From contig WPIO01000119.1 of the NCBI GenBank assembly GCA_009760855.2, positions 800,001 to 864,000 of the forward strand: 64,000 nt of DNA, read 5' to 3'. The DNA comes from Cristatella mucedo. Lineage: Eukaryota; Bryozoa; Phylactolaemata; Cristatellidae. Made by a program: the position numbers and the translations under genes. Position 1 is the stretch's first letter. Every line of letters starts with the position of its first letter. The notes under the pieces are model-generated. The model ran no database searches. It was not told the origin of the DNA and saw nothing but the letters and a program-made list of their open reading frames with translations. Below are positions 18,801-21,861 of this stretch, piece by piece.

Positions 18801-21800
18801 ACCTTGGGGCTCTGCGCTTGGTCTACTTCTTTAGAGAGAGATTGAATTCTCTGAGGGCGCTTTATCAAGTGCACTATTATTATTATTATCATTATTACAC
18901 GGTTTATAATATCTCTCTTGCCGATGTGATGACAAAGCACAATCTATGTTTTTTCCATTATGAAGATGACACTCAGTTGTACCTTTGCTTTGATCCCTCC
19001 CAGACCTCCATGTCGAATTCTCTGTGCACCCTTGCAGCATGTATTGATGGTTTCTGCATATCGACTGCAGCAAACTTTCTTCAATTGAGTAACGACAAAA
19101 CAACTTATTATTTATGGGCAAACAAGTGTGATTCATAAATTGGAAAATCTGCTGCTCAAAGTCGGATCTGCCAGCATAATTCGTGTGGAATTTCCACGAA
19201 ACTTAGGTGTCCTGTTCCGAAGTGACCTTTAAATAGACAAACATATCTCCACAATCAAGTCTGACTACTTTCAGCTGCATAACATTACTAAAATTCAGGC
19301 ATGTTTAGACTGGGATAGTACATACGAAATTAGTTGATGCATTTGTAACATCCTGTTTTGATATATGTAACTGATTGCTTGCTAGTCTCCCTATGTGTGC
19401 AACAATGGTTCTTGCAGTTGGTGCCAAACTCGGCAGCTATCTGTCGTTAGTACTGCAATTGCCATTTTACACCACTTCTCCCGACCTGCATCGGTTCCCA
19501 ATTAAGCAGCTCATCGACTTCAAGGTTCTGTCACTTTCTTTTTTTTTAAAAGTCCCTTCATTCTCTGGCTCCAGCGTAGCTATCAGAGCTACTTTCCAAC
19601 CCGATGAAGAATCCTACAACTGGCTTTTGTGACTCGACTTGTTAAGCCATACCACTAGCACTAACTTTAAAACTTAGGAGAAAACGCCTTTAGTCCCTAT
19701 GCTCCTATAGCCTGAAACTCGCTACCGAGGCATGGCAAAACATCCCCTTACGCGACGTTTATAAAGAAGCTTAAGCGCACCTGTGTGTTACAGCATTTGG
19801 TATGTCTCTGTGATTCATCCTTTGTCCCCGAGGTCCTGGGTTTGAATCGTATTGCAGGCGATCCATTATTGCTGTTTCAAGTGGTGGTGATAACCGTAAA
19901 GGCTCTTCTGTCGCTATACAAAAGAGGCTGTTTAATCGTCTAGTACTTTTTTCGTGTTCATGTACCTACTTACCTGCTGCTTGTGGATGTCACCAGCCTA
20001 ACACTGGTTACGATTTCTTTGGAGCTTCCGTACAATGCATTGAGAGATTCAGTTCTCTTCAGGTGCGATACAAATATAATAATAATACAATTTATTGCCA
20101 GTGTTATGATACCCACCAGCAAACCACATTCCTTGAATGTGTTTAATGATAAGAGACAGCCATCCTCACAACGGCTACAACTGATGCAAGAATCAGTTGA
20201 TGCAAAAAGCAGTTATTATTTTATTAGGCCAAATCCGTTTGCATGTATGCATGCATGCATACCCCTACCTGCCAGGTAATTTGTTCTTATAGCAAGCAAA
20301 ATGGTTTTTATAATTTGCATCTATTCCTTCACCGATGATGTGCTTTAAATTGCCCACTTTTCTCACGATTTTTAGCGTTAGCCTAGTAGCTCTCTGTTAT
20401 GCAATGTTTTACTTTACAATTGCTTAAGCCCATGTAAAGTGTCAAAGACTTTTAATTAAAAAAACATTTGCATAGTGCCCCAAGAGAGCTAAATCTCTAA
20501 TCAGGCATTTCACATTTGACACGGGCTTAATGCAGCGACCTGGTTCTGAAAATACATTCACGTTGACTTTGGTCGCTAAAAATATGAGCCCAAACGTCTG
20601 CATCCAAGCAGACTAGGCCATGAGTAATGATTAGGCACTTGTATTTAAGCTAGCCAAAGACCTGTTAGACGTTGTTTCCACTGCCTGCGACTGCTCTGAC
20701 AGCTTCTTTCATCGTGAACTTTGCATATCCTCTTAATGGAGTTCGTCAGTTGCTATACTGGTCTTTGAAGAGCACATTAGCCTAGTTGATTCCTACTATT
20801 ACTCATCCCAGAGTGCAGACTACTAGATTGACATCGTCTTTGGTATCCCTTGTTAAGTTGTGCCTGAAGGGACTGTCAGTCTCCCATAACCATGCACCAC
20901 CCTTCACTAGAGTCAGAAACAGCATAGTGGTCGTAAGTCTCATTGTGGTGCTGTAATTAGCTATTAAGTCTCATTTTCTGTTGCATTTTCTTAGCTTTCA
21001 AAAATATTGACCCCTCTGGCCTACTATCTCTCTGCATTTGAACTGCTAAGCTGTGCATCTTGCCCACCTCGAACCTTATGGAGACCATATCATAAGTTTA
21101 ATGAGCTTAAAGCCTGCACTTTTCTATCGGAAAATATTACGACATCCACTTGTGGAGATGCCGCATAAGTAGCATTTGGGCTTAAACGGCAGTCAGTCGC
21201 GATATTTTGGTTATGTTGGGACAGCTCAAAATCATGAGGTACGGCATGGGCTTCTGCAGCCCTGGTGGTTTGGCCTAGCCCTGCTGTTATGCTAACCCTC
21301 TTACCTAGTTCTGGCCGAGTCGTGGGATCGAGCTCCTAGACATATGTGAAGCTCGTATAGACATTGCTTTCTCATAGGGCACTATACAAACAAATTATAT
21401 ATTGTTTTTTTATGGTAAGATTTTACGGGTCGTCGTGTTGTGCTAGCGTTTTGAGACTATCTTGTGTCAGAAATTGTTGATATGCTCTAGAAGTCTTGCA
21501 GTCCCCACTAGTAGTTAGTCTTCTCATCATTTCTTCACAAAATAACATCCTACCAGTTTCTTATTTAATCGCGATTCCATAAATGTCGTTTTTTGAAAAT
21601 GTAGACTAGTTGATGTTACCAAATTGCAAGCATTGCTCAAGCTTACTGTGGTCATCCTTATTTTATTGACCAGTAATCAAGATCCAGTGAGATTCATCCG
21701 GGCATCTCTTCAAATGGAACTGGAGAGGCCAATCGGCTCCGAGACAGGAAGCATGGATGAGTATGGTCAACACCGAAACTGGATAGCCTCACCAGGATGG

Positions 21801-21861: not shown

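Follow-up and report, generated by a model that had tools for sequence, protein, structure and literature searches.

A tandem immunoglobulin-superfamily receptor gene of Cristatella mucedo with a broken L1-type tail exon

Organization of the locus

The window analysed here is a stretch of 64,000 nucleotides (C21:800001-864000) from an assembly of 572,011,866 bases in 688 contigs. It carries W, the third tandem copy of a receptor gene with immunoglobulin (Ig) domains; its sisters P1 and P2 are found upstream of W on that contig, at distances of about 219 kb and about 105 kb, respectively. Spliced from exon Ig2a onwards, W gives a single open frame of 552 residues with GT and AG at every junction used, and the spliced models of P1 and P2 have 570 residues each. 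These counts begin at Ig2a and not at the gene start, which was not found, nor was any exon upstream of Ig1. A codon scan alone was too noisy for calling exons. The parts of W up to the cytoplasmic side are the following, with window positions unless a contig is given.

C21:793508-793747, just outside the window: exon Ig2a, the first exon of the spliced model
3654..3882, + strand: exon Ig2b-3a, the second half of one Ig-like domain and the first half of the next (spliced model; acceptor AG and donor GT present)
7858..8207, + strand: exon Ig3b-4a (spliced model; protein with Pfam matches to Ig_3 and I-set)
13401..13870, no strand: conversion tract resembling P1 (W equals P1 at 28 of the 30 sites where P1 and P2 differ)
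13435..13539, + strand: exon Ig4b (spliced model), inside the P1-resembling tract
13632..14018, + strand: exon of the membrane-proximal domain (spliced model; Ig-like by eye)
14101..14780, no strand: conversion tract resembling P2 (of 58 such sites, W equals P2 at 51, P1 at six and neither at one)
14104..14244, + strand: transmembrane exon, with the juxtamembrane sequence RNKGEQYY (spliced model)
14450..14522, + strand: first cytoplasmic exon, cyt1 (spliced model)

W combines Ig domains recognized by Pfam (Ig_3, 50.0 bits; I-set, 43.9 bits) with a transmembrane segment and is thus an immunoglobulin superfamily receptor. In P1, too, Pfam finds Ig domains. For the membrane-proximal domain Pfam gives only a sub-threshold match to Ig_PVRIG (13.9 bits against a required 31.5). 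The transmembrane exon contains a hydrophobic segment, read by eye, and its 47-residue peptide is 100% identical across P1, P2 and W. An upstream Ig exon, Ig1, is present in P1, P2 and W (C21 ∼584360-584420, ∼696440-696500 and ∼792240-792300). Its 5' edge is ambiguous, with several possible acceptors; the first of these leads to a TAG in W, and P2 has a 2-base deletion there. A search with Rfam at the gathering threshold gave nothing in the window.

P1, P2 and W align over long blocks, and outside the converted tracts the P1–P2 pair is more similar than either copy is to W. Between 13401 and 14780 W is a conversion mosaic that resembles P1 first and then P2, introns included. As the converted tracts span Ig4b to cyt1, those exons are not independent evidence of selection on W. 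Exon Ig3b-4a may also have been converted from P2, judging by its 96.8% match to P2, which places W nearer to P2 than P1 is.

In the intron of W before the last exon, a 1.2 kb insertion (15005-16229) contains an open reading frame of 328 residues (15008-15994) that by eye is like the reverse transcriptase of a LINE; P1 and P2 continue across the insertion site, and an overlap of 7–9 bases resembles a target-site duplication. Further on, 16897-18833 pairs with a portion of P1 and P2 to which W aligns twice more, before 15006 and at 16230-16885; the intron of W therefore holds a partial internal duplication.

The last coding exon

The initial annotation described a FIGQY-like box that lay one base out of frame with the rest of the tail. 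Translation of 21660-21900 bears this out: the upstream exons of W splice into a frame that ends at TGA 21807-21809, 13 residues past DEYG, and the next frame, which contains the box, stops at 21859-21861. When the whole genome was searched with the tail peptide of P1, W likewise came out in two frame-shifted pieces, C21:821675-821770 (query 1-32, 75% identity, E 2.2e-7) and C21:821766-821858 (query 32-62, 68%, E 3.3e-5, with one TAG inside), so the out-of-frame box is not due to chance. Genome searches that used the P1 tail, both as DNA and as peptide, and a 1.2 kb piece of W found three copies of the tail, in P1, P2 and W, and on these grounds we rejected a reading of W as a lone gene without relatives. 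The last exon of P1 and of P2 is one open frame throughout (open tails at C21:603061 and C21:716786). The P2 tail has four residue differences from that of P1, one of which makes the box FIGKY. The case illustrates that intact neighbouring copies can account for an odd exon met in raw sequence.

The features of the exon are as follows.

21674..21861, + strand: last coding exon, broken in W; its homologues in P1 and P2 are open tail exons (alignment, peptide search)
21687..21795, + strand: hypothetical 109-nt GT-AG intron joining both frames, not favoured (splice-site scan)
21765..21766, + strand: site of a 2-nt deletion directly after DEYG, GGGGTC in P1 and P2 and GGTC in W (alignment)
21784..21786, + strand: TAG in the ancestral frame, where P1 and P2 read AAG (alignment; the one TAG inside the peptide-search match)
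21796..21861, + strand: relic of the P1 tail end, outside the spliced frame (ten W-only substitutions in 66 bases)
21807..21809, + strand: TGA that terminates the W protein in the spliced frame (translation, spliced model)

The offset between the frames is therefore real, and its cause is two missing bases rather than one extra. The second frame does run to a stop at 21861 as first described, but the TAG at 21784-21786, which the earlier description did not mention, lies inside it; undoing the frameshift alone would not yield an open tail. Seven W changes fall within the 15 bases 21781-21795 (nominal binomial P = 0.005 for a stretch picked post hoc). A scan for an intron between the boxes (donors from 21675, acceptors up to 21795) gave three in-phase GT-AG pairs of at least 40 bases, and all three were set aside: the 61-nt candidate leaves the TAG in, the acceptor of the 100-nt candidate scores −4.9, and a normal tail does not result from the 109-nt candidate. 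Downstream, at about 22679, W reads AACAAC where P1 and P2 have AATAAA.

Tail domain and ankyrin-contact residues

A whole-genome search with Bravo_FIGEY (PF13882) scored four candidates and gave three matches, at C21:603055, C21:716783 and C665:683962; the window is absent from these. Spliced P1 matches the model from position 2 to 85 of 86 with 63.2 bits. The 552-residue W matches positions 2-68 with 22.6 bits, below the cut-off of 23.8; the 77-residue tail fragment of W alone scores above it (27.2 bits) and also ends at model position 68 of 86, so that the last part of the model is missing from W in both searches. The gene at C665:683962 resembles these copies in having a Bravo_FIGEY match (FDEDGSFIQAYRED, 28.2 bits) and differs from W in its locus and its box. 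FN3 repeats were suspected in it by eye and were not confirmed by Pfam in four pieces.

The initial annotation compared the tail with those of the L1 family, which fits for the type of tail only. Like L1-family molecules (L1CAM, neurofascin, neuroglian), P1 has a tail that matches Bravo_FIGEY over nearly the whole model and aligns to the neurofascin fragment of PDB entry 7xce. By definition, L1-family proteins carry FN3 repeats that separate their Ig domains from the membrane; in contrast, FN3 is absent from the Pfam matches of the spliced P1 and W models (from Ig2a on), which pass from Ig4 and the Ig-like domain straight to the transmembrane exon. The spliced part of the W ectodomain has Ig domains, and W also departs from the family in ending before the ankyrin-contact stretch, which lies wholly outside its spliced frame. 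ZU5 domains were found at six places in the genome, as domain matches that do not by themselves imply ankyrin.

We took the register of the contact residues from the P1 tail against neurofascin in 7xce; the match has an E value of 0.09, so the register depends on the alignment itself. On this register the old frame of W has P, Q and E at the positions of neurofascin F1202, E1204 and I1209, and retains D1205, S1207, F1208 and Y1212. According to PMC9396398, binding of neurofascin to ankyrin-G drops more than 20-fold with either F1202Q or E1204A, whereas D1205, F1208 and I1209 changes act more weakly; S1207 and Y1212 correspond to disease sites of L1CAM at which binding is lowered. The box had been recorded correctly as FEGHY rather than FIGQY. 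With the residues matching F1202, E1204 and I1209 gone, FEGHY is, on the alignment, a relic that the spliced frame would leave untranslated.

An engineered loss of the same ankyrin-binding box is described for Drosophila neuroglian Nrg180 in PMC3627646, where deletion of FIGQY left essentially no Ank2 binding and almost doubled mobility, and where box mutants had binding lowered by 90% (Y-A), 70% (Y-D) and 30% (Y-F). Unlike these mutants, the loss in W is natural, takes a larger part of the tail and affects one of several paralogues. Among the titles and abstract openings of a literature search, which covered a minority of subscription journals, none was seen to describe such a natural paralogue.

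Substitution rates and constraint

We counted as W-only a change at any position where P1 and P2 agree and W differs; the comparison is among these three copies alone, so the counts include the stem of P1 and P2. The noncoding reference comprised nine chosen stretches outside the converted tract. Gene conversion extends over the Ig4b, membrane-proximal (Ig5), transmembrane and cyt1 exons (W-only counts 0/105, 7/387, 0/141 and 1/73, respectively), and the test therefore excluded them; it excluded Ig1 because of its ambiguous edge.

The W tail has as many W-only changes as noncoding DNA (30/188 against 976/6448; P = 0.76), distributed 11/8/11 over the codon positions. The three tested ectodomain exons have far fewer: 20/240 in Ig2a, 13/229 in Ig2b-3a and 4/350 in Ig3b-4a, or 37/819 when pooled (P = 2e-20 against noncoding DNA and 3e-7 against the tail). 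Leaving out the possibly converted Ig3b-4a gives 33/469 (P = 3e-7 and 0.0011, respectively). W-only indel events number none in the three tested exons, 60 in the noncoding stretches and one in the tail; the chance of zero indels in 469 bases is about 0.013. In the sister copies it is the tail that is spared, with P1-only or P2-only changes at 7/189 positions there against 258/2796 in two flanks (P = 0.008).

The dN/dS ratios of W to P1 and to P2 are, respectively, 0.45 and 0.48 for Ig2a, 0.32 and 0.20 for Ig2b-3a, and 0.45 and 0.39 for Ig3b-4a; P1 against P2 gives 0.29–0.33 over these exons. For the tail the values are 0.52 (W–P1), 0.88 (W–P2) and 0.38 (P1–P2), so the ratio for W is not cleanly 1. 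For Ig1 they are 0.68, 0.58 and 0.33 in the same order. Taken together, the substitution, indel and dN/dS counts indicate that P1 and P2 maintain the tail, that it is free in W, and that most of the testable W ectodomain is constrained. A pseudogene is marked by disabling lesions and relaxed constraint throughout its coding region; W shows these in the tail and not in Ig2a, Ig2b-3a and Ig3b-4a, while its converted exons are uninformative and Ig1 is ambiguous. The frameshift had been proposed to be recent; a tail with as many W-only changes as noncoding DNA gives this no support.

Interpretation of the broken tail

The explanation that we consider probable, on the strength of the genomic comparison, is that W encodes a receptor that has lost its ankyrin-binding end but kept its ectodomain. 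The 2-base deletion after DEYG shifts the frame, and the spliced frame ends 13 residues on. A stop in the last exon usually spares a transcript from splice-dependent nonsense decay; since the W stop lies there, the predicted transcript should escape. W would then yield a membrane receptor with a constrained ectodomain, a new end of 13 residues after DEYG and no link to ankyrin. By analogy with the Nrg180 mutants, such a receptor would be expected to be more mobile, or placed differently in the membrane, than P1 and P2. Counting against this are the AATAAA about 820 bases downstream, which is common to P1 and P2 and absent in W (W has another AATAAA, 1576 bases downstream), the possible TAG and raised W dN/dS in Ig1, a tail dN/dS that is not cleanly 1, and the above-cut-off Bravo_FIGEY score of the W tail fragment. 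Of the four options first put forward for the displaced box, the one with most support is that the ankyrin-binding end was lost in evolution; in its favour are the open sister tails, the 2-nt deletion, the nonsense codon and the neutral substitution pattern. If this explanation is right, the locus is a natural experiment, in which similar ectodomains with and without an ankyrin-binding end are adjacent in one genome, and the role of ankyrin coupling would be testable by comparing such paralogues within one animal. We judge the feature to be real and its cause ordinary, the decay of a tail in a tandem copy, in an interesting setting.

The main rival is that W is a pseudogene at an early stage, in which the tail was lost first and the rest has been kept intact-looking by conversion with P1 and P2. 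The converted tracts cover the stretch from Ig4b to the first cytoplasmic exon, and the possible TAG and raised dN/dS in Ig1 and the loss of the shared AATAAA fit this history too. Exons Ig2a and Ig2b-3a speak against it: the introns around them have diverged, but in the exons themselves the W-only rate is about half that of noncoding DNA (33/469 against 976/6448), with no indels and a dN/dS of 0.20–0.48. We regard this rival as a serious possibility that is nevertheless rather unlikely. An undetected splice, also among the options first listed, would work through the in-phase GT-AG pair at 21687-21795: a new 109-nt intron would remove both lesions and join NQDP to the box frame. Donor and acceptor score 1.7 and 0.6 in W against −2.3 and −7.5 in P1 and P2, within the range of the sites used in the gene (donors from −0.1, acceptors from −3.2), and a pair at least as good occurred in 90 of 4000 random stretches; these scores use approximate splice frequencies and were computed post hoc. 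Such an intron would also remove SMDEYG and the places of F1202 and E1204, and the end that it retains has ten W-only changes in 66 bases, the neutral rate. The pair exists on paper, but with those parts dropped and the retained end unconstrained it would not restore an ordinary L1 tail, and we think a split exon improbable.

An assembly or read error at 21765-21766 would fit a two-base change in a short run of G, and an error had been suggested at the outset; it would leave several separate lesions to explain, as the deletion is distinct from the TAG, from the seven changes at 21783-21793 and from the neutral pattern of the tail. We hold it to be very unlikely. Programmed +1 frameshifting in translation could in principle use the overlap of the frames, with a shift falling between the TAG (21786) and the TGA (21807). 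By eye alone no shift signal was recognized, the residues of the box have decayed and no shift is needed in the sister copies, which makes this scarcely credible.

Other copies in the genome

A genome search with exon Ig3b-4a gave 12 matches, seven of them close (91–100% to P1) and five distant (31–41%). The close ones are P1, P2, W, C21:1209610, C209:5316, C209:112673 and C571:9335. An L1-type tail was found beside P1, P2 and W alone, and none was detected at the other four close copies. The C571 copy (on a contig of 17,892 bases) and the one at C209:5316 sit at the ends of contigs, and the assembly may therefore lack their last exons; at C209:112673 and C21:1209610 there is room for a tail at the P1 spacing and none was found.

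The transmembrane peptide had 13 genome matches at E values up to 1. P1, P2 and W match at 100%. At C571 and at the two C209 places, near both Ig exons there, the match extends only to residue 36-37 of 47 (59–64%), whereas two matches on C376 and two on C66 reach residue 47 (41–55%); three further matches are weak, and none lies near C21:1209610. C571:16500-16980, about 7 kb past the close Ig3b-4a copy, differs in its transmembrane and juxtamembrane end, with KCQARQQKKDG in place of RNKGEQYY. C376 and C66 hold distant relatives of the Ig3b-4a and transmembrane exons in which the juxtamembrane end is kept.

A speculative reading, to which we give little weight, is that these genes form a family in which selection and conversion would keep the ectodomain near-uniform, and inner ends would be swapped or lost: an ankyrin-binding type (P1, P2), one cut off (W) and a different membrane and juxtamembrane end (C571 and probably both C209 copies). 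The arrangement would then be likened to the paired receptors of immune or self-recognition families, with coupling to the cytoskeleton as the switch.

Elsewhere in the assembly, C688:15615-16955 matches COX1 with 11 TGA codons inside, and C688 is probably the mitochondrial contig.
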